In this document: in pieces, positions 232-63,610 of the stretch
Layout of the letters: each line of letters starts with the position of its first letter
Position numbering within the stretch: the first letter of the stretch is position 1
Origin: Planctomycetota bacterium
GTDB taxonomy: Bacteria > Planctomycetota > JAJSAM01
Assembly: GCA_024274785.1 (NCBI GenBank)
Contig: JAJSAM010000047.1
Coordinates: 1 to 64,000, forward strand
Length of the DNA: 64,000 nt
Reading direction: 5' to 3'
Notes under the pieces: model-generated
Told to the model about the DNA's origin: nothing
Databases searched by the model: none
The model's input: only the letters and a program-made list of their open reading frames with translations
Made by a program: the position numbers and the translations under genes

Positions 232-798
232 GGGCTCGCGCCGGTCGGCCGCGGTCCGGCGGACGAGAGAGGCCTCGCGGTCGGGATTCCGACACCGCCG
301 ATCCGCGATCTGATTCCCCCCAGGTCCGTACCGGAGGAATTCGTCAGAAGAGTCGCCGCGAGCCGTTTCCCCCTGATGGCCGGCGATGTCGCGCTGAAGA
401 AGGGGGAGTTCGGGAAGGCGGCCATCGCGTTCGATCACGCCAGCCGTCGCCACCCCGAGTCGGCCGGACCGCTCTTTGCCCTCGGCGATGCGCTCCTCGG
501 TCTTGACCAGTTCGAACGTGCCGCCGGGAGTATCCGGAAGGGACTCACCAGGGCGCCCCAATGGGCCAATGCGCTGAGTCGCACCGGGAAGCGCGGGAAC
601 GCGAACCAACTGAGAGCAGTGGCGAAGTATGCACGGGAGCACCCGGGAAACGGCGACGCCTGGTTCTTGCTCGGCTACCTGCGGATGACATCGGGCGTCG
701 AGTCCGAGCGTGAACGCGCCGAACATGCGTTCAGAAACGCGGTGTCGATCGACCCCCGCGACGAAGCGTCCCTGCGCTACCTGCTCCGCTCCCGGTGA
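1..798 (+). CDS. C-terminal part of a repeat-containing protein with TPR-like domain (5' end outside window)
   Basis: Frame 1 is open from base 1 through the 33-bp repeats into the 376..798 ORF. TPR-like segments include 'AIAFDHASRRHPESAGPLFALGDALLGLDQFERAAGSIRKGL' and 'GDAWFLLGYLRM...AEHAFRNAVSIDPRDEASLRYLL'. Confidence 0.75.
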   Translation, partial: KLAPITSGRAAKLAPITSGRAAKLAPITSGRAAKLAPITSGRAANLAPITSGRAANLAPITSGRAANLAPITSGRAAGLAPVGRGPADERGLAVGIPTPPIRDLIPPRSVPEEFVRRVAASRFPLMAGDVALKKGEFGKAAIAFDHASRRHPESAGPLFALGDALLGLDQFERAAGSIRKGLTRAPQWANALSRTGKRGNANQLRAVAKYAREHPGNGDAWFLLGYLRMTSGVESERERAEHAFRNAVSIDPRDEASLRYLLRSR

Positions 799-971
799 GT
801 CGGGCGCCGTCCCGACCAGTGATATCCCCGCATTGACCGCCGGACGGCGGTGCGGTGCTCTCTTGCGGTCCGGACGGGGTGCGGGTTTCCGGCACAGGCG
901 GGACCTCCCTGGACGTCGCTGCGGTGGGTGTGGTCGAGACGGCGCTCGACCCTCCGAGGCGGTGGAGCCGC

Positions 972-1892
972 CTACTCGGCCAGGCCCTGCAGGTGGGCCT
1001 CGACATTTGGGCCGAGTTCGGCGAGACCGTAGCCACCCTCCAGGGTGGAAATCACCCGCCCGTCGGCGTGTATCTCGGCCATCCGCACGATCTTCTCGGT
1101 GATCGTAAGGAAGTCCTCGGTCCGCAGGTTCAGCCCGCCGATGGGGTCGTCGACGTGGGCGTCGAACCCGGCGGAGATGAGCACGATCTCCGGCCGATGG
1201 GCGGCGACTTCGCGGAGCCCCTGGTCGAGGGCCAGCAGGTAGTCTCCCGGTGTGGTGTGGGCGGGGAGAGGAACATTACGGTTGGCGGCGGCGCGCCGGC
1301 GGGAGTGGTACGGGCCCCCGGTGCCCGGGTAGAACGGATAGCGGTGCAGCGACAGGAAGTAGATCGACGGGTCGTCGGCGAAGATATCCTCGGTCCCATT
1401 GCCGTGATGGACATCGATATCGACGATGGCCACGCGGCCAAGGCCGTGACGGCGCCGCAGATACCTGGCGCAGACCGCGATGTTGTTGAACAGGCAGAAG
1501 CCCATCGCCCGGCTCTTCGTTGCGTGGTGCCCGGGCGGGCGGACCAGGCAGAAACCGCGCCGGCTTCTCCCGGTCATGATCTCGTCGGCTGCGGCGAGGA
1601 GCGCGCCAGACGCTTTTTCCGCGGCTTCGAGGGAGCGCCCGCCGGTGTGGGTGTCGCTGTCGAAGGACCCGTTCCGGTCGGCCACGCTCTTCACCATCCG
1701 GTAGTATCCGGGATCATGAGCCATGGTGATCTCATCGACCGTGGCTCGACGCGCGGCAACGAGCGGGACCTTCGCAAACACGCCGGCCCGCTCGAAGTGA
1801 TCGAGAATAGCGGTCACGCGGTCCGCGGACTCCGGGTGTCCGTACCCCGTGTCGTGATCGAGACTCACGCTGTCGTGGACGAGAAAAGCCAA
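972..1892 (-). CDS. Histone deacetylase family protein (AcuC/HDAC-like amidohydrolase)
   Basis: Motifs [62 protein letters not shown] start at 1892 with upstream GGAG fits the family N-terminus; the ORF itself runs to 1970. Confidence 0.9.
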
Positions 1893-1996
1893 TACACCGC
1901 TCCGGTTTTCCCGGTCGTCGCCGGTGCGAAGTAGGATACCTCCCCGCGGCGGGATCTTTGAAGGGTGCATGTTGCGGAGCCGAGGGAGGGTTTTTT

Positions 1997-5874: not shown

Positions 5875-6515
5875 AGCTCTTTGCCGACACCGCGGACGTC
5901 GAAGAGATCCGGAAGCTGAACGACCTCGGCATCATCGACGGGGTGACCACAAATCCCTCGCTGATCGCGAAAGAGGGGCGGAAGTTCGAGGAGGTCGTGC
6001 AGGAGATCGCCGAAATCGTCGATGGTCCCATCTCCGCGGAGGTCGTCTCCGTCAAGGCCGAGGGCATGGTGGCCGAGGGCCGGGAACTGGCGAAGCTCCA
6101 TCCGAACATCGTCGTCAAGATCCCGACCATCCTCGAGGGGTTGAAGGCCACCCGGATTCTCGCGAACGAGGGGACCCCGGTGAACATGACACTCTGCTTC
6201 TCCGCCACCCAGGCGCTGCTCTGCGCCAAGGCCGGCGCCGCCTACATTTCCCCGTTCGTCGGTCGACTCGACGACATCCACACCGCGGGTATGGGCCTGA
6301 TCGAGGAGATCGTCACGATCTACTCGAACTACGATTTCGAGACCGAGGTCCTCGTGGCGTCGATCCGGAGTCCCCTGCACGTGCTGGACGCGGCGATCCT
6401 CGGTGCGGACGTCGCCACCTGCCCGCCGAAGACGATCTACCAGATGATGGCCCACCCGCTGACGGACATCGGCCTGGCGAAATTCCTGGCGGATTGGGAG
6501 TCGGTCCCGAAATAG
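5871..6515 (+). CDS. tal: Transaldolase / fructose-6-phosphate aldolase-like (TalC/Fsa-type)
   Basis: [37 protein letters not shown]... VKIPTI... [31 protein letters not shown] overlap with uvrC. Confidence 0.95.
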
Positions 6516-6540
6516 CGCGCCCTGCATTCCCGGAGATCCG

Positions 6541-7004
6541 GCCGCCGTGCCGACCAGTCACAACGCCACCGCGACCCGGGAGTCCCGCCTGTGCCGGTGA
6601 ATCGCCCGCAAACCGGAAACCCGAACCGATCACCACCCGCCTCGGAGGGTCGGCCTCTGTGCCGACCAGTCGCAACGCCACCGCGACCCGGGAGTCCCGC
6701 CCGTGCCGGTGAATCGCCCGCAAACCGGAAACCCGAACCGTCCGCACCCCCCCTCGGAGGGTCGGCCGCTGTGCCGACCTGTCACAATGCCGCCTCGACC
6801 CGGGAGTTCCGCCTGTGCCGGTGAATCGCCCACCTGCCCCGGCGTAAGAGAGCCCCGATCGCCCCCTGGCCCGCAGGTCGTGTTCCGCGCGGAATCCCGG
6901 ATGTGCCGCGATGCTCCTTCACCTTCAGGACCGCGGGTCGTCTTCCGGCACAGGCGGGACTGGTCGAGACGGCGCTCGACCCTCCGAGGCGGTGGATCCG
7001 CCTA
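6541..7004. repeat. Cluster of family-A repeat elements: three ~112-bp tandem copies plus one inverted copy fused to the dinB stop codon
   Basis: GTGCCGACCAGTCRCAACGCC at 6547 and 6659, with a related copy at 6771. CTCGGAGGGTCGGCC and GTGCCGGTGAATCGCCCGCAAACCGGAAACCCGAACC recur. Inverted copy GGTCGAGACGGCGCTCGACCCTCCGAGGCGGTGGATCCGCCTA ends at 7004. Confidence 0.85.
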
Positions 7005-7529
7005 CATACCCCAGAGGTTTCCGGTGTGAACCGGCTTGCCGAGGAGTTTCAGGTAGTAGTAGAGCTGCGCCTTGTGGGATTCGAGGTGGCCCACCATCCC
7101 GAGCAGGTGCCGGCCCAGGGAAATCTCGACCTCGGGATTCCATGGCGCCGATTGCATCTTGTGTTCGAGATCCTCTTCTCCCGCACGCTCGATCATCTCG
7201 CAGGCGAGCGTCTTGTCCGCGGAGAGCAGGTCCACCGCCTGGGCCACGGATTCGACGGTGGGCATCTTCTCCGCGGGGGGAAGCATCTCCTCCTCCGGGA
7301 TCTCCTCGTAACTCTGCCCTTCGGGAAAGCCCCAGTCGCCGGTGACGAAACCCTTCATGCAGAAGCCGCACGCGGTCTGGATGTGGAAGAGGAGTTGCCC
7401 CATCGTCATCCAGTTCGAGCCGGTTTCGGGTTTGAAATCAAGCATGTCGTCCGTCACGAGGTCGATCAGGCCTTCCGTGGCCTTGTAGGATGCGGCGACC
7501 TCGACTTTGAGCAGTTCCGTCCAGTTCAT
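7002..7529 (-). CDS. DinB-like (four-helix, DUF664-type) family protein
   Basis: MNWTELLKVEVAASYKATEGLIDLV...NWMTMGQLLFHIQTACGF...GRHLLGMVGHLESHKAQLYYYLKLLGKPV. ATG at 7529; the longer ORF upstream is not needed. Confidence 0.8.
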   Translation of the reverse strand: MNWTELLKVEVAASYKATEGLIDLVTDDMLDFKPETGSNWMTMGQLLFHIQTACGFCMKGFVTGDWGFPEGQSYEEIPEEEMLPPAEKMPTVESVAQAVDLLSADKTLACEMIERAGEEDLEHKMQSAPWNPEVEISLGRHLLGMVGHLESHKAQLYYYLKLLGKPVHTGNLWGM

Positions 7530-14135: not shown

Positions 14136-14182
14136 CCGTCATGCGCCGCGACCGCCCCTCAGATCGTTCGCAATGGTGAGAA

Positions 14183-15520
14183 ATGCGGGCTGAGCATCCG
14201 CGAAAGAGCAGGGCCTACATCCGGCTCCTGCAGTTCGTCTACAACCTGGTCTACCTGGTCATCCTGCTCCTGATCCTGCCGTTTCTCGTGTTCAAGCTCC
14301 TGACCAGCCCGAAGCACCGGGCCGGTCTGGTGCAGCGCATGGGGATCCTCGAGCCGTGGCCGTACCACGGGCCGCGGATCTGGATTCACGGGGTCTCGGT
14401 GGGGGAGGTGCTTGCCGCGAAGAGCCTCGTGGACGTGCTGGACCGCGAACTGCCAGACCATGAGGTGGTGATCTCCACGACGACGAAGACCGGCCAGCAG
14501 GTTGCGCGTGAGCACTATCCGGGCCGCCGCATTTTTTACTACCCGCTCGACTTCTCCTTCGCCACACGGCGGGTGCTTCGGCGGGTCCGGCCGGAGGCCG
14601 TGATCCTGATGGAACTCGAGATCTGGCCCAACTTCCTCCTCTCCACCTCGGCGGTGGACGTGCCGGTGCTCCTGGTGAACGGCCGGATTTCCGGACACTC
14701 CTTCCGCCGGTACAAGATCCTGCAGAGGGTCATTCCGGAACCGCTTGACCGGATCTTCCTCTATTGCGTTCAGACCCGGACCTACCGGGAGCGGTTCCTG
14801 GCGCTGGGGGTTTCCCCGGACCGGGTGCATGTCACCGGCACGATGAAATTCGACACCATCAACACCGAGGGAGTCGAGGAGGTGCGCCGGGAGGTTCGGG
14901 CCGGACTCGGCATCGCCGGGGACGAACGGGTTCTCCTCGCGGGTTCCACGCATCCGACCGAGGAGGAGACACTCTATGACATCTTCCTCTCCCTGGTCTC
15001 GGAGCACCCGGAGTACCGCCTGATCGTGGTACCCCGCCATCCGGAGCGATTGGCGGAGGCTGAGGCGATGTTCGTCCGGCGTCAGGCGCCGGTGGTTCGC
15101 AAGACGGCCCTCGGAAATCAGGACGCCGGTGACAGGAGACCGGTCATCCTTGTGGACACGATGGGGGAACTGGCGAAGATATATGCCGCCGCGGACATCG
15201 CTTTCGTGGGCGGAAGCCTGTTCCCGCACGGTGGGCAGAACATGATGGAGCCGGCCGGTCTGGGCCGCGCCGTTGTCTTTGGTCCGCATATCCAGAACTT
15301 CCAGGAATCAGTGGACATTCTCCTGGACGGAGACGCGGCGAAGATGGTGCGGGACGCTTCGGAGCTTGAGGAGGTTATTCTCTCGCTGGCGAATGACCCG
15401 GAGGCCGCCGAGGCGATGGGCGCGAGAGCTCGCAGGATTGTCATTGGACACAAGGGCGCCAGTGAGAGGATCATGGATCTGATCCGGCCTCACTTCACGT
15501 CGGTGCATGAGGCCGATTGA
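14183..15520 (+). CDS. waaA: 3-deoxy-D-manno-octulosonic acid (Kdo) transferase
   Basis: IWIHGVSVGEVLAAKSLV, STTTKTGQQVA, PLDFSFATRRVLRRVRPEAVILMELEIWPNFL, GGSLFPHGGQNMMEPAGLGRAVVFGPH. Confidence 0.93.
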   Translation: MRAEHPRKSRAYIRLLQFVYNLVYLVILLLILPFLVFKLLTSPKHRAGLVQRMGILEPWPYHGPRIWIHGVSVGEVLAAKSLVDVLDRELPDHEVVISTTTKTGQQVAREHYPGRRIFYYPLDFSFATRRVLRRVRPEAVILMELEIWPNFLLSTSAVDVPVLLVNGRISGHSFRRYKILQRVIPEPLDRIFLYCVQTRTYRERFLALGVSPDRVHVTGTMKFDTINTEGVEEVRREVRAGLGIAGDERVLLAGSTHPTEEETLYDIFLSLVSEHPEYRLIVVPRHPERLAEAEAMFVRRQAPVVRKTALGNQDAGDRRPVILVDTMGELAKIYAAADIAFVGGSLFPHGGQNMMEPAGLGRAVVFGPHIQNFQESVDILLDGDAAKMVRDASELEEVILSLANDPEAAEAMGARARRIVIGHKGASERIMDLIRPHFTSVHEAD

Positions 15521-16805: not shown

Positions 16806-17549
16806 ATGAAAACGGATCTTCCCGCGTTGACGCGGAGAAGAAGGATGGTTAGGATGCTCGCTCGGGCAATACTGATACAAAAGGATGCGGAGGAGCTTCG
16901 TAAAATGCGAAGGGAACACGGTTTCACGCTGATCGAGATCCTCGTGGTGATCACGATTATCGCTGCGCTGGTCGGAATGGTGACGTTGGTGATTCCCAAG
17001 GGCAAGGAGGTGAAGGATCGTGTCACGTGCATGAACAACCTTCGCCAGATCGGCTCCCTGCTTGTCGCCTTGGATGCGGGGCCGGGCGTGAAGGAGTACA
17101 GCGGTGCCGCGTTCGTCCTCCAGGTCGCCGGCGACGTCAAGAACGAGGATCTCGACGTGTACGTCTGCCCGGGTGAGGGAGAGAACATGGACGACCCCAG
17201 GCCGTCCACGTCCGATCCCGAGTTCGTCGCGATGTACCGCGAGGAGATGAACCTCAAGTCCGGGAAGGTGGAGGATCGCTTCACGTCCTACGCCGGACCG
17301 AACTGGAAGGCTTTCCCGAAGTCCAAGGCCGGCAAGGCCAAGCAGGAAACCCGGCTGTGGGCCTGTGACAAGTGCCGCAACGGGGCTGCCTACCACGATG
17401 GGATCGTCGTTCTATACTCCAGTTCAAAGGTGGACTTCATCAAGTTGGAGAACCTGGAGGGGCACAGCGTCGACAAGGGCACCATCGACGTCGGCCCGGA
17501 CTCCGGGGACAAGCGGCTCGCGAAGATGATCTTCTTCCCGAACCAGTAG
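16806..17549 (+). CDS. Type II secretion/type IV pilus pseudopilin-like protein (prepilin N-terminal methylation motif)
   Basis: MRREHGFTLIEILVVITIIAALVGMVTLVIPKG. The likely start is the internal ATG near 16905. Confidence 0.8.
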   Translation: MKTDLPALTRRRRMVRMLARAILIQKDAEELRKMRREHGFTLIEILVVITIIAALVGMVTLVIPKGKEVKDRVTCMNNLRQIGSLLVALDAGPGVKEYSGAAFVLQVAGDVKNEDLDVYVCPGEGENMDDPRPSTSDPEFVAMYREEMNLKSGKVEDRFTSYAGPNWKAFPKSKAGKAKQETRLWACDKCRNGAAYHDGIVVLYSSSKVDFIKLENLEGHSVDKGTIDVGPDSGDKRLAKMIFFPNQ

Positions 17550-17605: not shown

Positions 17606-17818
17606 TCATAGGCTTCGGATGGTCGGCCGCGGTGCCGACCACCCCTACCCGGGGAGCAGGCTGCGGTGTGACTCGTCGAGACGGCGCTCGACCCTCCATG
17701 GGCATGGTGCTGTCCACACTCGTCCTTCACCCCGTTCGCGTCCCCCTTTGCATTTTCTCGAATGCGGATCGAGCCCACCCTAGAATCGTCGCGGGCAATT
17801 CGCTCCGGAGATCCGTCC

Positions 17819-19156: not shown

Positions 19157-19765
19157 ATGAAGACGGTCTTGATCGCGCTCTTGTGTCTCGCGCCATTCGT
19201 TGCCAGTGTCCAGGCCGAGGGTGACGGGGAGTACAAGCGCTGGAAGCTCGACATTACCTACGGGGCTCCTGATTTTGTCGTGCTCGAGGATGCTCTGGGG
19301 AACGTCCGCCTGTGCTGGTATCTCACCTACACCGTCACGAACAACACCGACGGCGAGGTACCCCTCGGCATCAGGATCGGCGCGGCAACGGATACCGGCA
19401 AGCAGTATCGCGACTCCATGGCGCCCCTGGCCGAGAAGGCCCTGAAGAAGAAGACGGGCAAGGAGTACAAGAACGCCCTGGCGATGGCGAAGGGCAGGAT
19501 CGCTCCGGGCAAGAAGATCGAGGCGGTCGCGCTCTTCGGCGAACTGGACCCGAACTGGGACTTGCTCACCATCCGCATCGCCGGCCTCTACGACACCGTC
19601 GATCAGGTGGACGGAAAGCTCTTCTTCGAGAAGAAGGTGATGGTGCTGACCTGGAGCCGCCCCGGGGACGAGTTCGGGGCCTCAGGCGACCCGATCACCT
19701 TCAAGAACAAGAGCTGGATGATCGAGGGCGAGCGCCGCGAGATCCCCCAGACCGAGAACAACTAA
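19157..19765 (+). CDS. Secreted hypothetical protein
   Basis: Signal peptide MKTVLIALLCLAPFVASVQAE. No family recognised. Confidence 0.75.
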   Translation: MKTVLIALLCLAPFVASVQAEGDGEYKRWKLDITYGAPDFVVLEDALGNVRLCWYLTYTVTNNTDGEVPLGIRIGAATDTGKQYRDSMAPLAEKALKKKTGKEYKNALAMAKGRIAPGKKIEAVALFGELDPNWDLLTIRIAGLYDTVDQVDGKLFFEKKVMVLTWSRPGDEFGASGDPITFKNKSWMIEGERREIPQTENN

Positions 19766-19795
19766 CCCGCTTTTCCCACCAGTGGAAAGGCTGCC

Positions 19796-23453: not shown

Positions 23454-24353
23454 ATGAAGGGCATCTTCGTAGTCGCCTCACTGACCGCAATCCTTTTGCT
23501 TGCCGGTGGTTGTGAAGGAACGGCGGGTTCGGGTTCGACGGGTGAATCCACGCCGCCGGCGCCGGCCGCCACCACGAGTACCGGGCTCACCGGGCCGGGG
23601 ATCGCGGATGAGTACGGCCCGGACGCGAAGCGGAAGATGGATGTGGCCTGGCAGGCGTTCAAGGATGACGCCCCCGAGTGGCCGTACCTCCGCCAGGAAT
23701 GGATCAGTATCGGCCGTCGGGCCACCTCCACGCTCGTGGAGAACCTCTATGGAGCCATGCTCATCTCCGCCGCGGGGAATTTCACCGAGGGTTATGACCG
23801 GGCGCGGGGGGAACTCATCCTGCTCGGTGAGCTGGCGGTTCCGACGCTGGCCGCGGTGCTGGAGAAGGGCACCATCTACGACCCGCGGACACGGTCGGAT
23901 CTCCGCATGCCCACCGGGATGGTCAGTGCCACCACCGACATCATCGCCATGAGCCGGGGCTTCGCGGTGCCGTACCTCGCGAAACTCACCCGGAAGGACC
24001 GGCCGACGATCCGCCGCTCCGCGGCCGCGGGACTGGGGCAGACCGGCGCTCGATCCGCCGTGGCGCCCCTCACGAAGGTGCTCGAGGGAGCATCCGAGTG
24101 GTCGGAGCGGATGGTGGCGGCGCGGGCCCTCGGCAACCTCCGGTTCCCCGAGTCGGAAGCGGCGTTGATCCGCGCTCTCGAGGACACGGACGCGGAAGTG
24201 GTGGAGGTGGCGGCCCGCTCCCTCGCCCAACACAAGGCGCACAGTGCCCTTCCCGCCCTCGACAACCGTCGCCAGCGCGCCCAGGCGGCGGGCCGGCACC
24301 AGATCGCCGCGGCGTGCGGAGCGGCGGCGAAGGCAATCCGGGGAAGCCGGTGA
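23454..24353 (+). CDS. Lipoprotein with HEAT-like repeats
   Basis: Lipobox LLLAGGC. Repeats RPTIRRSAAAGLGQTGARSAVAPLTKVL and MVAARALGNLRFPESEAALIRALEDTDAEVVEVAARSLAQHK. Confidence 0.8.
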   Translation: MKGIFVVASLTAILLLAGGCEGTAGSGSTGESTPPAPAATTSTGLTGPGIADEYGPDAKRKMDVAWQAFKDDAPEWPYLRQEWISIGRRATSTLVENLYGAMLISAAGNFTEGYDRARGELILLGELAVPTLAAVLEKGTIYDPRTRSDLRMPTGMVSATTDIIAMSRGFAVPYLAKLTRKDRPTIRRSAAAGLGQTGARSAVAPLTKVLEGASEWSERMVAARALGNLRFPESEAALIRALEDTDAEVVEVAARSLAQHKAHSALPALDNRRQRAQAAGRHQIAAACGAAAKAIRGSR

Positions 24354-24880
24354 GCAGGTTCAGAATCGGCCGGAAGGGCGTCGCCTGCGGCGTCTGTGAT
24401 CGGGAGTTCGCCCCGGGGGACGAGTTCGTCTCGGCCATCTTCGAGGTGGATGCCGAGGGCGCCAACCCGGCCGACGAGGACGAGACCCGCACCTTCGAGC
24501 GCCTGGATGCCTGCCCGGGTTGCTTCGAGAAGATCGAGAAACCGGCCTACTCCCACTGGTTGACCAGCCTCCCGGTGGACGAGGCGAAACAGCCGCTTCT
24601 CGATCTCACGATGGCGCGCGACTTCCTGGTTCGCCTCTGTCGGGAGGACAACCCGGAACGCCAGGCCCTGGTCTACATCCTGACCCTCCTCCTGCTCCGC
24701 AAGCGAAGGGTGAAGCTTGTCACGGAGCGGGTGGAGAACGAGGTCACGGTCATGGACTTGACGGTCAAGACCGGCGAGGGTGATGAAATCGAGGAGATCA
24801 CCGTCCCGGTCTGCGAACTCTCGGAAGAGGAGACGACGGAGATCGAATCGGAACTGGGCCGGCTGTTCGGATTGGCGTAG
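24350..24880 (+). CDS. Hypothetical protein with N-terminal zinc-ribbon-like Cys pairs
   Basis: MSRFRIGRKGVACGVCDREFAPGDEF...CPGCFEKIEKPAY. GTGA overlap with the upstream lipoprotein gene. Confidence 0.7.
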   Translation: MSRFRIGRKGVACGVCDREFAPGDEFVSAIFEVDAEGANPADEDETRTFERLDACPGCFEKIEKPAYSHWLTSLPVDEAKQPLLDLTMARDFLVRLCREDNPERQALVYILTLLLLRKRRVKLVTERVENEVTVMDLTVKTGEGDEIEEITVPVCELSEEETTEIESELGRLFGLA

Positions 24881-25290
24881 GCCGCTCCGCGGCCTCGGAG
24901 GGTCGAGCGCCGTCTCGCCCAGTCACCATCGAACTTTTTCCCCGGGAGTTGCGCCTGTGCCGGTGAACCGTTCACCAACTGCAAGACCAGACCGTTCGCC
25001 CCCCCGATGTGGAAAACCGGTGTCCACGTCTCCTGGTGGCTGGCCTGCGTGCGGTTTTCCAGTGCAGGCGGGACCACCGTCGACGATGCTGCGTTGTGAC
25101 TGGTCGAGACGGAGCCCGACCATCCGACGGGGGAATCGCTGCCCGCCTCTTGAAATGTTCGCCCACCGTGGGCGTATTGCCTCTTGATTCGGAGGGGCGG
25201 CGTCCTCGCCGACCACGAACCCTGAAGAGCCGGACCACACGGGTCCCCTCGATCCGATCGGGGGAAGAGAGGGACGGGAACACGGCCTCC
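24878..25290. repeat. Cluster of family-A repeat elements between convergently diverged copies
   Basis: TAGGCCGCTCCGCGGCCTCGGAGGGTCGAGCGCCGTCTCGCCCA (24878 on), GCGCCTGTGCCGGTGAACC, inverted CCAGTGCAGGCGGGACC...GGTCGAGACGGAGCCCGACCATCCGACGG, and GGAGGGGCGGCGTCCTCGCCGACC. Confidence 0.8.
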
Positions 25291-41075: not shown

Positions 41076-41978
41076 GTGAACGAAGGCGTGGAAGGACGGA
41101 GAGCGAGACGGCGGAGCCGGATTGTCAGGATCATCCGGCTCCAGCTCGTCGTCGTGTTCGTGCTCGCGTGCTGGCGCGGATCCCAGGTGGTTTCCGCCTG
41201 GACCGCCGTCCGCCCGGCCTTTCTCGTCGAGAGTTCGGGGACGCGGATCCTTTCGCGTGCGGGCTGGCTCACCGACGACGACGTGCGTTCGATTCGCGAT
41301 GCCTCGGGGGTCGACTCCGGTCTCTACTCCTTCTTCTCCCCGAAGCTGACCTCTTATTTCGACGCCCCCTATGCCGCCTCTCCCTGGGTCAGGCGCGTGG
41401 TGGATGTGCGGCCCGCCTATCCGAATCGGGTGCGGGTCTTCCTCGAGATCCGCGAACCGGTGCTCGGTGTGCCGGTTGATGAAAGGGGGATCCATCTCGT
41501 GGATGAGCGCGGGGTGCGGCTTCCCGGCGTCCGGAGTCGGCCTCCGGAAGGGCTCACTCGACCGTTCTACCGGCTGATCGGAGTGGATGGGCCGCCGCCC
41601 CGGGCCGGAGAAGTCTGGTCGCGCGGCACGGTGGAGGGGGCGGCTGTGGCCGGGGAACTGCAAGCTCTGACCGGCGATATGGTCGCCGCGGCCCGCATTC
41701 ACACGGTGGACGTCGCCAACGTCGGAGGGCGGATCGACCGCCGCCGTCCGGAGATCCTGCTGGAAACCGCATCAGGCGCCGTGATCGAGTGGGGGCGCTC
41801 GAGCCGTTCCCCGCGCGCCGGGACCGAGCCCGCGCTCGCGGACAAGGTCAAGCGCCTCCGCCAGGCCCTCCGCACCTACCCCGGCCTTGCGGGCCTGGAT
41901 CGGGTGAAACTGCAGTTCGACCGGCTCACGGTCGTGGAAACCGGGTATGGGGTGGCAGCGAATGCCGGACAGCACTAG
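41076..41978 (+). CDS. ftsQ: FtsQ/DivIB-like cell division protein
   Basis: Basic N-terminus, one TM, then VRRVVDVRPAYPNRVRVFLEIREPVLGVPVDERGIHLVDERGVRLP (POTRA/FtsQ pattern); dcw position. GTG start at 41076. Confidence 0.75.
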   Translation: MNEGVEGRRARRRSRIVRIIRLQLVVVFVLACWRGSQVVSAWTAVRPAFLVESSGTRILSRAGWLTDDDVRSIRDASGVDSGLYSFFSPKLTSYFDAPYAASPWVRRVVDVRPAYPNRVRVFLEIREPVLGVPVDERGIHLVDERGVRLPGVRSRPPEGLTRPFYRLIGVDGPPPRAGEVWSRGTVEGAAVAGELQALTGDMVAAARIHTVDVANVGGRIDRRRPEILLETASGAVIEWGRSSRSPRAGTEPALADKVKRLRQALRTYPGLAGLDRVKLQFDRLTVVETGYGVAANAGQH

Positions 41979-43905
41979 CCCGCTTTTCTCACCGGTGCGG
42001 GGACTTGGCGCACTGTTGTTGCTCCTCCTGGTATTCGCCGAACTCCCCCTGCTCGCGAAGCACCTGCCGGTGGGCCCGGCCGGTCTCATCACGCCTCGGG
42101 CCGTCGCCGCCGCATCCGCCATCGCATTCCTCTTCCACGTGCTCGCGGTGTGGCCGGTCATCGGGACGCGGGGGAGGGCCGGGGCCACCGCGGTCCAGGG
42201 GGCGCTCTTCTTCCTGGTCGGGGCGACGTTTGTCTTCGTGTCCGCCCGAGCCGCCGGCGTTGGACTGGGTGAGGTCCGGTCCGCGACCCTGGTGCTCGCG
42301 GCCACGACGCTCCTAGCCGGAATTCTGCTGGCCCGCTCGGCGGCCGGGCCGGGTTGGGATCGCCTCTGTGCGATGGCGGTTCTGCTCGTTTCCGCGGGCC
42401 TGCCGCTCGCGAACTACGCGCTGAACGAGTTCGGAGGCATCTCCGGGCGTCTGGGTTATCGCCTTTCGCCGCCGTTGCTGGTGCGGCGGATCCTGCTCGG
42501 CCATGCGGATGCGGACCCGGTTCCTTTCCTCATGCTCTGTCTGCTGGCATTGGCGGTTCTTCAGGGGCGTCGTCTGCTCGGCAGGGGCAAGGCGGCGGCG
42601 ATGATCGTGCTTCTTCTCGCGGGAACCGTTCGGGGAGAGGAGACGCGCGTTGCTCCCCTGCTCGGGGACGCCTACGTACCCGGGCGCCCTTTGCCGGTCC
42701 TGGTTACGGGCACGCCCACCGGGGTGACGCCCGCGGTCCTGGTGCCCGGTGTGGCGATGGTTATCGGGCAGTCGACTCCAGGCGGGTGCATCCTGCTGCT
42801 TCCCGCTCCGGAGGATCTGAACCTGATCCACGTGCGGGTGGCCGGAACGGGGGGTCCGGGGTGGGAGGAACGCGGTATCGACGTGCGTGCGGTGCCTTTC
42901 GGATGGCGCCACCTCGTGAGTTTTACCGGGGTCGGGGACGAGTTCCTCGATCAGGCCCAGATGCGGTCGATCGTCTTGTCGCGGGTTCACCCCGGTGCCC
43001 TGTCTCAGGATGCGGCGGCGCCAGCTTCGGCGATGGGGGACCTGGCCATCGCCCTGCTCGCCGCGGACGGGGTGCTCGACCCGGACGGGATTTTGCCGCC
43101 GGAGACGGTTCGCTCGCTCGAGGCGGCCGGTGTCCCGGTGCTCACGGAAGCGAGCGCGGTCGCCCTCGACCGCCTCACTGCAGACGTGAGCGTCGTGAGG
43201 AGGATCTGGGAGGAGGAGGAGACGGTGCTCTCGGCCGCCGGTCTGTTCGATCTCTTTCCGGGGCGGGAGGGGCCCGATCCGGCGCGTTCGCGCACGGCTC
43301 TCTTCATCCTCCTCGGTTTTTCGCTTCTTTTCTTCGCGGGGGTTCGCTTCATCCTGCGGCGCCGGCTGAACCCGGTGACGGCGGTGGTCTTTGCGCTGCT
43401 GGCCGCCGGGTGGACCGCCTTTCTGGCGCTTTCGGTCTTGCCCGAGCCGCCCGACTGGAAAGGGCAGTCCATCACCGTCAGGGAGGGTGAGCGGACGGTC
43501 CGGCTCGAACTGCTGAAGGCCGTGTGCGTCTGCCGGGCGGCGGGAGAGGGGCGCATGGTGCTCGGTCCGGGCGCCGTGCCGGAGATCACCGCGGATCGAG
43601 TCATCGTGCCGCTGAAGGCACACGAGGCGCGGATCACGGTGGCGGAGCGTTTCTCCCCACCCGTGGTCTCCGGATCGCCGGATGTGCTTTTCGGGCCGGC
43701 GGGGCTCAGGTTGCCGGGCCGGAAAGCGCAGGCGCCGGCGGAGTTCCTGAAAAAACACTATCCCGGCGGCCCCGGGCGTCCGGATCCCCGGGCCCTGGTG
43801 CTTCGCAAGCTGATCAGGCTCGCGAATCCGCCGCAGACGGAGGTGGGGATTCGATTCCCGACGCCCGAACGCGCGATCCTCTCCGTTTTGCCGGTGAGCG
43901 AGTAG
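41947..43905 (+). CDS. Hypothetical multi-spanning membrane protein (652 aa)
   Basis: Clustered N-terminal hydrophobic segments, a long central hydrophilic region, two TMs (LFILLGFSLLFFAGVRFIL, VTAVVFALLAAGWTAFLALSVL) and a C-terminal domain. Start codon overlaps ftsQ. Confidence 0.7.
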   Translation: MGWQRMPDSTSPLFSPVRGLGALLLLLLVFAELPLLAKHLPVGPAGLITPRAVAAASAIAFLFHVLAVWPVIGTRGRAGATAVQGALFFLVGATFVFVSARAAGVGLGEVRSATLVLAATTLLAGILLARSAAGPGWDRLCAMAVLLVSAGLPLANYALNEFGGISGRLGYRLSPPLLVRRILLGHADADPVPFLMLCLLALAVLQGRRLLGRGKAAAMIVLLLAGTVRGEETRVAPLLGDAYVPGRPLPVLVTGTPTGVTPAVLVPGVAMVIGQSTPGGCILLLPAPEDLNLIHVRVAGTGGPGWEERGIDVRAVPFGWRHLVSFTGVGDEFLDQAQMRSIVLSRVHPGALSQDAAAPASAMGDLAIALLAADGVLDPDGILPPETVRSLEAAGVPVLTEASAVALDRLTADVSVVRRIWEEEETVLSAAGLFDLFPGREGPDPARSRTALFILLGFSLLFFAGVRFILRRRLNPVTAVVFALLAAGWTAFLALSVLPEPPDWKGQSITVREGERTVRLELLKAVCVCRAAGEGRMVLGPGAVPEITADRVIVPLKAHEARITVAERFSPPVVSGSPDVLFGPAGLRLPGRKAQAPAEFLKKHYPGGPGRPDPRALVLRKLIRLANPPQTEVGIRFPTPERAILSVLPVSE

Positions 43906-56590: not shown

Positions 56591-57400
56591 GTGAGCGCGT
56601 TGATCAGTGGTGTGGGCAGGGAGGTTTCGCACACTGTCGGCATGGCGGGCTGCACCATTCGCGTTTTCCTGCAGGCCGTGGGATACCTCTTTCCGGTGCT
56701 CGTCGAGAAGGGTGGTTTCCGGTCCATCGTCAGCCAGATGTACTTCTGCGGCGTGAAGGCGCTCGGCGTCTCGACCATCGTCGCCCTGTTCATGGGCATG
56801 ATCGTCTCGCTGCAGGGCGGCATCGAGCTGAAGAAGTTCAACCAGGCGGAACTGATCGGCGCGGCGGTGGCGGTGTCCATGTGCCGTGAGATGGGGCCGA
56901 TGATCACGGCGATCATCCTCACCGCCATGGTGGGGTCCACCATCGCTGCGGAGATCGGTACGATGAAGGTCTCCGAGGAGATCGACGCCCTCGAGGTCAT
57001 GGCGATCGACCCGGTCCGGCTGCTGGTGACGCCCCGGGTGGTGGCGCTGACGCTGATGACTTTCGCGCTGACGATCCTCGTGAATCTGTTCGGGATTCTG
57101 GGCGGTGGAATCGTGGCCGTGGCGCAACTCGACGTCCCGTTTGATCGATACCTCGAGTCCGCGCAGACGATCCTGACCGGACGCGACCTCCTCGGTATTC
57201 TGCCGAAGAGCGTCTTCACCGGCCTGATCAAGTCGTTCGTCTTCGGGGCGTTGATCTCTTCGGTGGCGTGCGCCCAGGGCCTGGTGGCGCGCGGTGGACC
57301 GCTCGGTGTGGGCCGGGCGGTGCGGCGTACCGTGGTGGCGTCCATCATGCTGATCCTGATATTCGGATATCTCATGACGGCCTTCTTCTACACCGTGTAG
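56591..57400 (+). CDS. mlaE: MlaE-family ABC transporter permease
   Basis: STIVALFMGMIVSLQGGIELKKFNQAELIGAAVAVSMCREMGPMITAIILTAMVGSTIAAEIGTMKVSEEIDALEVMAIDPVRLLVTPRVVAL. Confidence 0.95.
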   Translation: MSALISGVGREVSHTVGMAGCTIRVFLQAVGYLFPVLVEKGGFRSIVSQMYFCGVKALGVSTIVALFMGMIVSLQGGIELKKFNQAELIGAAVAVSMCREMGPMITAIILTAMVGSTIAAEIGTMKVSEEIDALEVMAIDPVRLLVTPRVVALTLMTFALTILVNLFGILGGGIVAVAQLDVPFDRYLESAQTILTGRDLLGILPKSVFTGLIKSFVFGALISSVACAQGLVARGGPLGVGRAVRRTVVASIMLILIFGYLMTAFFYTV

Positions 57401-57420
57401 CGGGCCGATGGGGGAGTGAC

Positions 57421-58503
57421 ATGGAGAAGTCGCACGATTTCCTGACCGGGGTGGTGTTCTTCGTGCTCCTCGGTGTTCTCGGGTTCTTCACCATCGTATT
57501 GGCGGACGTGAGGTTCGGTGACCTGCCGACGCGCACGGTGCGGTTCGAGGCGATCGAGGGACTCGAGCCGGGCCATGCGGTTCTGATCGACGGCGTCCGC
57601 TGCGGCCGGGTCAGTGAAGTGCGCCGGCCCGCCGGGCAGCGTGAGATCGACGTCGTGCTGGAATTCGACGAGGAGCCGGCGTTGTTCGAGGGGGCCACCT
57701 TCACCATCAAGAGCGCCAGCATGCTCGGCGGGCGGGTGATGGAGATCGTGAACCTGCCCGATGCAACGGCGAAGCTCGGGGCGGTGGGGCTCACTGGCAG
57801 CGTGGCCGGAGACCCCCTGGTCCAGGCCGGGAAGCTCCTCAGCGACGAGAACATCGCCCGGGTCCAGGACATCCTGGCGCATCTCGATGCCCGGATCGTA
57901 GAACTCGAGGAGTTCACCGTGGCCTTGCGGGATAAGGGCCCGGAGCTGATGGACAACCTGAACAACCGGGCTCTGGAGATCGAGGAGTTCACCGTGGCCT
58001 TGCGGGACAAGGGGCCGGAGCTTCTGGATCATCTGAACGACCGGGTCGTCGAGATCGGAGACTTCACCACGGCCCTCGGAGAGCAGGGGCCGGAACTCCT
58101 GGCCAAGCTGAACGAAAGGGCCGACGAGATCGAGGGATTCACGAAGTCGCTCGGACGGGACGGCCCGGAGATCCTCGCCGAAACGAAGGCGATGGTCGCG
58201 GAACTGAGAGGCATGACCGCGAAGATCTCGAGGGGCGAAGGCGTCGGCCGGGTGCTCCTCCGGGATGACCCCTGGATCAAGTTCGAGAGTGCCGTCGCGA
58301 AGGTGGAGAAGGCCGCGGAGAACGTGGAAATCGCCACGGGCAGCCTGCGCCGCAAGGACAACATCGTCGGCCTCCTTTTGACCGACCAGGAGATGGCGAT
58401 GCAACTCAAACGCGCCATGAAGGCCCTGAACGACTTCCTGGAAAGCCAGCGCGAGGACGCCCCGCTGACGTCGTTCGCGGGTGTGCTGCTCACCCCGTTC
58501 TAG
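57421..58503 (+). CDS. mlaD: MCE/MlaD domain protein with four 25-aa helical repeats
   Basis: N-terminal TM; RFEAIEGLEPGHAVLIDGVRCGRVSEVR (MCE domain); then 4 x 25-aa repeats beginning VELEEFTVALRDKGPEL. Confidence 0.9.
   Translation: MEKSHDFLTGVVFFVLLGVLGFFTIVLADVRFGDLPTRTVRFEAIEGLEPGHAVLIDGVRCGRVSEVRRPAGQREIDVVLEFDEEPALFEGATFTIKSASMLGGRVMEIVNLPDATAKLGAVGLTGSVAGDPLVQAGKLLSDENIARVQDILAHLDARIVELEEFTVALRDKGPELMDNLNNRALEIEEFTVALRDKGPELLDHLNDRVVEIGDFTTALGEQGPELLAKLNERADEIEGFTKSLGRDGPEILAETKAMVAELRGMTAKISRGEGVGRVLLRDDPWIKFESAVAKVEKAAENVEIATGSLRRKDNIVGLLLTDQEMAMQLKRAMKALNDFLESQREDAPLTSFAGVLLTPF
57898..58197 (+). repeat. 75-bp in-frame tandem repeat, 4 copies, within the mlaD-like gene
   Basis: GAACTCGAGGAGTTCACCGTGGCCTTGCGGGATAAGGGCCCGGAGCT and GAGATCGAGGAGTTCACCGTGGCCTTGCGGGACAAGGGGCCGGAGCT etc. 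at 75-bp spacing. Confidence 0.85.
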
Positions 58504-58600
58504 GCGGCCCTGCCGCCTCGGAGGGGCGGCCGCGGTGCCGACCACACGCCGCCGACCTCTTTTCGGGGAAGTCACGCCTGTGCCGGAAACCCGTGCGCCG
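58501..58600 (+). repeat. Family-A repeat element fused to the mlaD stop codon
   Basis: TAGGCGGCCCTGCCGCCTCGGAGGGGCGGCCGCGGTGCCGACCACAC...AGTCACGCCTGTGCCGGAAACC. Confidence 0.8.
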
Positions 58601-61979: not shown

Positions 61980-63164
61980 GTGCAGGTGTCCCGGCAAGCG
62001 CAGGCGATCCTCCTGTTGACCGTGCGGTTCTCCGCGCAAAGCGACGCAAACCCGCTGACGCTGACTGAATGGGACCGCTTCGCCGCGTGGCTGCAGGGGA
62101 TGGACCGTCGGCCGGAGGACCTGTTGGGCCAGGAGCGCGGATCACTGCTCGCGGAATGGCAGGATGCGGAAATCAGTGCTTCGCGGCTCGGAATGCTGCT
62201 CGATCGGGGTTCCGCACTCGCGGTGGCGCTCGATCGCTGGCTCGGCGCCGGGCTCTGGGTTGTGACCCGGGGTGACCGGCATTATCCTTCGCGCTTGAAG
62301 CACCGGCTCGGCCGGATGTCTCCTCCGGTGCTGTTCGGCTGTGGCGACCCCGCACTCCTTCACCGTGGCGGTGTGGCGGTCGTCGGTTCGCGAAAGGCTC
62401 CGCCCCCGGACCTGGAGTATGCCTGGCACCTCGGCGCACGGATCGCGGAGGCGGGGCTCCCGGTCGTCTCCGGCGGTGCCGTCGGTATCGACGAGGAAGC
62501 CATGGCCGGGGCGCTCGAGGCAGGCGGGTCGGTGGTGGGGGTGCTGCCGCATGGTCTGCTCGGCGCCACCGCCGAGAGCCGTTACCGTACGCACCTGATG
62601 ATGGGGGAGATGGCGCTCATCTCTCCGTACCAGCCGGAGGCCCGTTTCGAGGGCGGGAATGCGAAGCGGCGGAACAAGATCATCTACTGTCTTTCCGATG
62701 CCGCGGTGGCGGTGCATTCCGGGAAGACCGGAGGCACCTTCTCCGGTGCGAGCCAGGTCCTCCGGGAGGACTGGATTCCCCTCTGGGTGAGAGTCAATGC
62801 GGATCCGGAATCGGGGAATGCCGCTCTCATCGAGTCCGGCGGATGGGCGCTCACCGTGGATGCCGCCGGTGTGGATCCCGCCGTGCTTGCTGCTCCGCGC
62901 CGGGATGCCATGGCGAACGGCGGTGTGAGTGGGGGCGGGGCGGAGGCCATTTATCACAGCTTCCTCACACCAGCTCTTCAACTCTGCGGTGAACAGGCGA
63001 GAACCCTCGATGAGCTGTCCGTGGCTCTCGGGCTCACGACGGATCAACTTGGTCTCTGGCTGTCCCGCGCGGTGTCTGAAGAGCGCCTGGTAAAGCTCGC
63101 TGACCCGGATCGCTACGAACCTCCGAGGTCCACGCCTGGTCAGCTGACCCTCTTCGATGCCTGA
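61980..63164 (+). CDS. Divergent DprA-like (SLOG/Rossmann) DNA-processing protein
   Basis: GGVAVVGSRKAPPPDLEYAWHLGARIAEAGLPVVSGGAVGIDEEAMAGALEAGGSVVGVLPHGL; GNAKRRNKIIYCLSDAAVAVHSGKTGGTFSGASQVL; C-terminal winged-helix-like segment. GTG start abuts the recQ stop. Confidence 0.85.
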   Translation: MQVSRQAQAILLLTVRFSAQSDANPLTLTEWDRFAAWLQGMDRRPEDLLGQERGSLLAEWQDAEISASRLGMLLDRGSALAVALDRWLGAGLWVVTRGDRHYPSRLKHRLGRMSPPVLFGCGDPALLHRGGVAVVGSRKAPPPDLEYAWHLGARIAEAGLPVVSGGAVGIDEEAMAGALEAGGSVVGVLPHGLLGATAESRYRTHLMMGEMALISPYQPEARFEGGNAKRRNKIIYCLSDAAVAVHSGKTGGTFSGASQVLREDWIPLWVRVNADPESGNAALIESGGWALTVDAAGVDPAVLAAPRRDAMANGGVSGGGAEAIYHSFLTPALQLCGEQARTLDELSVALGLTTDQLGLWLSRAVSEERLVKLADPDRYEPPRSTPGQLTLFDA

Positions 63165-63610
63165 ATCGGGGCCTCCCTGTCCGATATACCGCATATCATC
63201 GGAGGGTCGGCCGCGGTGCCGACCACACCCACCCGATCTTCCTCCCCGGATGTTGCGCCTGTGCCGGCAAGGCGTTCGCCGACCACGAGACCAGACGTTC
63301 CACTGCCCGAGCCTCGGGCTTCAGTACGCGCCCGTCCGACTGGGAATTGCAGTCGGCGTCTTTCGGTGGTTGGAGTACGGGCGGTTTTGGGCACAGGCGG
63401 AGTGAACTCGTGTGTGTGGCCGTCTCGAACGTCGGCGTACCCGGCAGGCACCAGTTCGCGGAGTGCATGAGCGTCCTGTCGCTCCTTCTTCTCCCTGATG
63501 AGAGCGCGGACGAACTCACTCGGCGTCGAGAACAAGGTTCCATCGCCGGGGTTCTGGTCGAGGAATGCCCGCAGTTCGTCGGTGAGTGAGAGATTGATGG
63601 ACCGGGCCAT
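63140..63610 (-). CDS. ParD/RHH-like antitoxin fragment reading into repeat sequence
   Basis: MARSINLSLTDELRAFLDQNPGDGTLFSTPSEFVRALIREKKERQDAHAL resembles ParD-type antitoxins. The portion below about 63400 is repeat-derived. Confidence 0.6.
   Translation of the reverse strand: MARSINLSLTDELRAFLDQNPGDGTLFSTPSEFVRALIREKKERQDAHALRELVPAGYADVRDGHTHEFTPPVPKTARTPTTERRRLQFPVGRARTEARGSGSGTSGLVVGERLAGTGATSGEEDRVGVVGTAADPPMICGISDREAPIQASKRVS
63195..63400. repeat. Family-A repeat elements between convergent dprA-like and parD-like genes
   Basis: CGGAGGGTCGGCCGCGGTGCCGACCACACCCACC...GTTGCGCCTGTGCCGGCAAGG; inverted half GGCACAGGCGGAG near 63390. Confidence 0.75.

Follow-up and report, generated by a model that had tools for sequence, protein, structure and literature searches.

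Published accounts, which are drawn on here in part, describe REPs as tagged stem-loops, typically 20-40 bp long, which often occur in head-to-head pairs and lie behind genes (PMC3733652). As far as that account is used here, the subfamilies of GTAG REPs differ at complementary residues of the stem, form both HH and TT dimers, with heterodimers being common, and reside in convergent or codirectional gaps, where the GTAG ends often give the TAG stop. Sections of two other papers state that palindromes are preserved in BIME and REP variants by complementary changes (PMC2817692) and that compensatory changes are common in REPINs (PMC3116915). The GTAG tag and the palindrome are described as acting in cleavage by REP transposases (in part of PMC8266576), while E. 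coli REPs situated at most 15 nt from a stop codon are described as able to stall ribosomes (in part of PMC12306157). A more complex arrangement is presented in PMC3733652 for Pseudomonas putida and P. fluorescens, namely double inverted repeats in which a degenerated GTAG-1 unit is accompanied by an unrelated stem-loop. Here we compare with these systems a family of interspersed hairpin elements, one member of which is located at 24878-24925 of the window, i.e. of the whole 64,000-nt stretch of DNA that was analyzed.

Architecture and distribution of the arm family

The repeated unit is an arm of approximately 100 nt. An outer hairpin 1 with a GTAG foot is optional but often present at gene ends; TCGGAG and hairpin 2 come next, and a variable spacer separates them from a distal box (consensus CGG..AGT.CCGCCTGTGCCGG). 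The hairpin-2 unit itself reads GGAG followed by GGTCGNN-loop-NNCGACC. Two arms can face each other with their tags outward, separated by 0-142 nt, and they then form an imperfect palindrome of approximately 260 nt. Ten such tag-outward pairs were counted, together with 2 further elements in the tag-inward (-+) arrangement, and a single hairpin was present in 48 of the 61 clusters. Positions of the features in the window are given in Table 1.

Table 1. Arms and hairpins of the family in the window, with the genes whose stop codons they supply
Feature	Position	Strand	Remark
Diverged hairpin 2, GG/CC type	792..818	+	Partner of arm 877..975
Arm, GTAG-hairpin 1, hairpin 2 AG/CT type	877..975	-	TAG is the stop of a histone-deacetylase-like gene, 972-1970 (-)
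Arm, unit 1 of 112-nt tandem triplicate	6512..6609	+	Hairpin 2 degraded on 5' side
Arm, unit 2 of 112-nt tandem triplicate, GC/GC	6624..6721	+	
Arm, unit 3 of 112-nt tandem triplicate, GC/GC	6736..6833	+	
Facing arm, GTAG-hairpin 1, AG/CT	6933..7005	-	TAG is the stop of a minus-strand gene with its end at 7002
Hairpin 2, GC/GC type, short arm	17615..17641	+	
Facing diverged arm, AG/CT	17648..17717	-	
Left arm of two-armed element	24877..24975	+	93.1 bits, model R1
Hairpin 1 (TAGGCCGCTCCGCGGCCT)	24878..24895	+	G precedes, so reads GTAG; TAG terminates the upstream gene (24314 or 24098 to 24880)
GGAG tag and hairpin 2 (GGTCGAG-CGCCGT-CTCGCCC)	24897..24920	+	One mismatch
Right arm, hairpin 2 GG/CT (wobble) type	25047..25146	-	Partner of arm 24877..24975
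Extra diverged hairpin-2-like copy without arm	25189..25215	+	4 substitutions
Arm, CTAG-hairpin 1, hairpin 2 GC/GC type	58500..58598	+	TAG terminates gene 57421-58503 (ORF list: 57268-58503)
Arm, GC/GC	63181..63279	+	Motif 35 nt behind DprA-like gene 61980-63164

The sequence-only reading from which this study started had listed three hairpin-2 sequences in the window, and all of them were recovered: GGTCGAG-CGCCGT-CTCGACC on the minus strand (932-951 and 6962-6981), GGTCGGC-CGCGGT-GCCGACC at 17621 and 63205, and GGTCGGC-CTCTGT-GCCGACC at 6648 (the last three on the plus strand). Hairpin 1 was located as it had been described, at 957-974, 6987-7004 and 24878-24895. The two hairpin-2 patterns were found 6 and 5 times, against 0.07 and 0.06 expected from dinucleotide-preserving shuffles. 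At the coordinates given in that reading (24878-24925), the copy of hairpin 2 (24901-24920, GGTCGAG/CTCGCCC) carries one mismatch, a T opposite a C at the third pair.

At 6531-6866 a 112-nt arm unit is repeated three times in tandem, the copies being 88% and 70% identical to the first, which indicates that arms multiply in place too. Two other tandem repeats were observed inside genes of the window, a 33-nt repeat at 1-295 inside the first called gene (1-798) and three 75-nt repeats at 57905-58129 inside a MlaD-domain gene (57268-58503).

The family is dispersed through the 4.54-Mb genome (83 contigs), in which BLAST with positions 24877-25010 as query found 49 places, the query itself counted. 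A covariance model (R1) built on 41 arms from BLAST and nhmmer gave 88 arm matches at E<=1e-3 in the same genome and zero at this threshold in 293 other genomes of the phylum. With laxer filters, the eight other genomes of the order yielded two matches only, both near chance (E 0.014 and 0.030). Exact hairpin-2 patterns had no matches in the GTDB genome contigs and IMG/VR, the 270-nt element had none in a distant BLAST against plasmids and phages, and the 64-kb window had none in Rfam at the gathering score. Two weak DNA matches in relatives (33 and 35 query bases) were unlike the arm in sequence and were taken as chance. As far as the searched genomes show, the arm family is specific to one lineage. 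The best named relatives of one protein encoded in the window are records of Candidatus Eisenbacteria and Zixiibacteriota, with 52-55% identity, so that the phylum assignment is to be taken as a lead only.

Hairpin 1 searched alone, with 0 or 1 mismatch, was matched only in arms or their reverse reading, and its matches with 2 mismatches showed no excess over the backward-read control (73 and 70). The arm elements look like mosaics of modules. By eye, an outer flank like TCAAG.C.ACTCAGGT recurs beside arms at C11:34212, C14:85976 and C80:11719 of the genome (G000), and an inner motif like GGGATGCAGCGGCCCTCGAATGCAGCA in elements at C56:20494 and C75:81171.

Covariation in the hairpin stems

Two base pairs of the hairpin-2 stem vary in the family. 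In the 41 arms, stem columns 40/49 are AU in 22 and GC in 16, and columns 41/48 are GC in 26 and CG in 12. We further compared 77 hairpins taken from 76 stretches of the genome, for which the hairpin regular expression was tested against chance with mononucleotide shuffles. Sixty-two of them are fully Watson-Crick at both variable pairs and belong to four classes, AG/CT (28), GG/CC (15), GC/GC (14) and AC/GT (5), all four combinations of the two pairs being represented and the G-C to C-G change included. The other 15 possess mismatches or wobbles and no unique compensated pair. Fisher tests of the partner pairs gave p values of 5e-14 and 3e-17, and three non-partner comparisons in the same 77 hairpins gave 0.01, 0.03 and 0.04. 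The exchange of AG/CT for GC/GC with pairing kept, first noticed in the window, therefore extends beyond it with the support of these tests. Since model R1 rewards hairpin-2 pairing, copies recovered through it alone might be biased in favour of paired stems; the same covariation is seen in the 41 arms, which came from searches by sequence only (BLAST, nhmmer).

Controls on the whole structure gave the following results. Once it was slid out of register, the proportion of paired cells fell from 77% to at most 47%. Compared with shuffles, it stood out in paired cells, in cells changed on both sides and in the covariation score (0/500 each), while two measures which count pairs or types were not above shuffles (419/500 and 150/500). 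RNAalifold, run on the 41-arm alignment, predicted just three pairs of hairpin 2, the inner ones, and two others. The covariation of the two hairpin-2 stem pairs is real and strong. Hairpin 1, for which preserved pairing had also been proposed, keeps it above offset controls but only in a minority of arms: of the 77 upstream stretches, 14 contain it fully paired (6/6, loop of 5) at the proper offset, compared with 0 or 1 when the offset is moved upstream by at least 3 nt.

In a palindrome composed of two facing arms each stem could in principle pair with its own partner or with the other arm. Single-strand folding of one element favours the arms pairing into one long hairpin. At the variable positions of the 10 two-armed elements, pairing within the hairpin was found in 39 of 40 cases versus 20 of 40 between arms, and in all 10 elements the two arms carry different stems. 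The local hairpin is therefore the unit kept paired, and the covariation of hairpin 2 is distinct from the symmetry which any long palindrome shows trivially.

Double changes show that the stems were kept paired at some stage, and of the proposed selection on a folded RNA or single-stranded DNA this much holds, since such changes preserve pairing locally and above controls. Selection on RNA of the host, which may have acted, does not follow from this: the covariation is real, but paired stems occur in four classes only, and compensation was not seen outside these common classes. Because all paired stems belong to the four common classes and the rare changes are uncompensated, the simplest reading is that source copies were required to fold if they were to spread and that the insertions then decayed. 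A pattern of classes like the observed one would be expected if the stem subfamilies arose ahead of the spread or in its course and the copies then decayed in the ordinary way. We also built a tree of arm tails for 56 of the 77 hairpins, i.e. those from the four paired classes with at most 3 substitutions and a complete tail. This tree, poorly resolved with few columns and few resolved forks, requires at least 20 class changes, the minimum possible being 3 and the mean for shuffled labels 26.9.

Genomic location and stop codons

Genes were called with a codon-usage script in place of a standard gene finder; by these calls, 94 of the 98 arms lie between genes. The 61 elements are situated in 32 convergent, 24 codirectional and 3 divergent gaps, with 2 at contig edges; in the window, 5 of 28 gaps of at least 60 nt are divergent. 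This is the location of GTAG REPs and BIMEs, behind coding regions and rarely between divergent genes. A same-strand gene end is found at most 400 nt upstream of 58 of the 77 hairpins, and 13 of these 58 have the stop codon at a distance of exactly 15 nt from the TCGGAG motif that follows. In 11 paired hairpin-1 copies the TAG is at the same time the stop of the upstream gene, with GTAG present in 9 of them. TAG terminates 40 of the 58 genes upstream of hairpins versus 18 of the 50 genes called in the window.

Search for a transposase

A genome-wide search with PF01797 revealed one Y1_Tnp gene, with no arm within approximately 3 kb on either side. Its protein scored 57.9 bits with the NCBIfam RAYT model, below the cut-off of 80, and phmmer against PDB sequences returned nothing relevant to it. 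We rejected this gene as the transposase of the arm, its terminal repeats being unrelated to the arm. A RAYT gene flanked by an arm was not found in this genome, whose assembly is 90% complete, and the Y1 loci of relatives (n=11) had no arm beside them. A dedicated transposase may sit in the absent 10%.

The Y1 tyrosine transposase gene (335 aa) occupies 53759-54890 of contig C17 (locus L078, G000:C17:50500-58000) and is flanked by inverted GGGGTCAGGTCTGACA repeats. The pattern of these repeats has 21 hits in the genome, often as inverted pairs with a spacing of roughly 70-90 nt. A second repeat family, starting TAGCCCGCNTTTCTCACC, was observed in the window at 14175-14192 (-), 19763-19780 (+) and 41976-41993 (+). 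With up to 2 mismatches it has 67 matches in the genome versus 1 in the control, including several inverted pairs approximately 217 nt apart. Unlike the arm family, it recurs in the phylum (24 of 199 genomes at 1 mismatch), where its copies number in the tens in some genomes and frequently lie close to contig ends. It is possibly a terminus of a mobile element with a wide distribution.

Origin and maintenance of the element

From these results we consider it probable, at roughly 0.7, that the element represents an interspersed extragenic palindrome of the REP/BIME-like kind, which was spread by single-stranded DNA recognition of the HUH/Y1 type and survived behind genes. The hairpin would be recognized as single-stranded DNA by a tyrosine transposase of this type, which would have copied the unit around the genome, and new source copies would have had to stay paired. 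Such a demand on source copies could have left a few stem subfamilies which differ by complementary changes. The insertions that persisted would mostly be those immediately downstream of genes, a position in which hairpin 1 can provide the stop codon. Once transcribed, these hairpins lie in 3' untranslated regions and may affect RNA stability or stop-proximal translation, by analogy with the REPs of E. coli. A special form of this reading, in which the GTAG and GGAG hairpins travel as a unit without a dedicated transposase, as a composite REP-like class whose insertions hand genes a new stop and a structured 3' end common to many unrelated genes, is tentative and rather doubtful.

The position behind genes could also be attributed to a host-selected RNA element of the 3'-UTR, in which the arm folds behind the stop and ends or stabilizes the mRNA, with its pairing maintained by host selection; Rho-assisted termination, exonuclease block and ribosome stalling near the stop were considered as routes. 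Such a role is in accordance with arms which begin close behind genes on the sense strand, with the many convergent gaps that contain one arm for each gene, with the 13 stops at exactly 15 nt from the motif, with the stability of hairpin 2 alone (approximately -11 to -14 kcal/mol) and with the C-rich, G-poor composition of the first 20 nt past it (C 0.44, G 0.20). An intrinsic terminator was rejected, since no T-rich tract follows hairpin 2: none of the 77 copies has at least 5 T in the next 10 nt, and TTTT within 20 nt is absent in 75 and present in 2. Besides this lack of a U-tract, most genes have no arm, 15 of 77 stems contain uncompensated changes with no rare compensated class, and the gene ending at 17549 already has, by eye, a terminator-like hairpin with a T-run ahead of the arm. 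Purifying selection against insertions elsewhere gives the same location bias, and we regard selection by the host as an unlikely origin of the pairing.

The arms could further be the long terminal inverted repeats of a MITE, a non-autonomous relic of a DDE transposon, as two facing arms of up to approximately 100 nt, 0-142 nt apart and dispersed between genes, would suggest. However, the 10 two-armed elements show no signal of target-site duplication (4.7 vs 4.3 for swapped flanks), 48 of the 61 clusters consist of one hairpin, so that many arms are single, and simple terminal repeats do not need a locally covarying hairpin in each arm. No transposase-bearing copy was seen, the genome-wide transposase search being that with PF01797 only, and we find this origin improbable. 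Least of all do we favour the absence of any structural constraint, with a few inherited stem variants copied as blocks or symmetrized by hairpin-templated repair or gene conversion, which we consider very improbable. In its favour, only four paired classes exist, unique changes are uncompensated and related copies are more alike in class than shuffled labels (20 vs 26.9 changes). Against it, the double changes that distinguish the classes are two and independent, and occur in all four combinations; each of two classes needs a minimum of 3 changes on the starred tree branches alone; and making the classes requires some stem changed on both sides.

Comparison with known repeats

To judge from the part of PMC3733652 considered, the family resembles GTAG REPs in being a tagged hairpin in many copies, with subfamilies of complementary stems, HH dimers with conserved spacers and heterodimers, and in its position behind genes and between convergent genes, with ends that supply TAG stops. 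Its copies are dispersed and intergenic, and its stem-loop palindrome has variants which keep the pairing, as in GTAG REPs and BIMEs. Unlike in GTAG REPs, there is no unpaired GTAG (GT[A/G]G) at the 5' foot of hairpin 2: the tag of the main hairpin is GGAG, and the GTAG hairpin is an optional outer module, a TAG-bearing paired hairpin 1 at a gene end being present in only 11 of 77 copies. In addition, a RAYT gene bordered by the unit was not detected here, and the arm of approximately 100 nt exceeds the 20-40 bp given for typical REPs in that part of PMC3733652. On account of the GGAG tag of hairpin 2 and the failure to find a RAYT gene accompanied by the arm, we name the element a REP/BIME-like variant and not a GTAG REP.

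The Y1 gene of the same genome has a likeness of its own, to TIRYT/TIRtron, its inverted repeats fitting the GGGGWSAS consensus in the portion of PMC3733652 considered, and these repeats are unrelated in sequence to the arm. Closer to the arm in composition are the Pseudomonas double inverted repeats, likened here by their description in part of PMC3733652 only, in which a GTAG-type hairpin is likewise joined to a second, unrelated stem-loop. These flank a transposase in some copies, according to the same description, unlike the arms, for which no adjoining transposase was found. A literature search found no paper linking Eisenbacteria with repetitive extragenic palindromic repeats, and the six papers listed among the 21 matches of a broader search made no mention of Eisenbacteria. 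Our results extend REP/BIME-type repeats, most of whose hallmarks are present here, to a lineage whose closest named relatives, by the scan of one protein, are Candidatus Eisenbacteria and Zixiibacteriota. They also sharpen a question on REPs, namely which enzyme spread a tagged hairpin family that is found beside no transposase. The phenomenon as such is known for REP-type repeats; what is new is the lack of a partner transposase, the family and its two-hairpin arm. With BIMEs and REPINs, as they appear in the sections of PMC2817692 and PMC3116915 considered, it shares the inverted pairs, the structured spacer and palindromes kept by complementary or compensatory changes. It differs from them in arms of approximately 100 nt with a conserved distal box and in covarying pairing within each hairpin, which makes it a clean case where local hairpin pairing can be separated from the pairing of the long palindrome.
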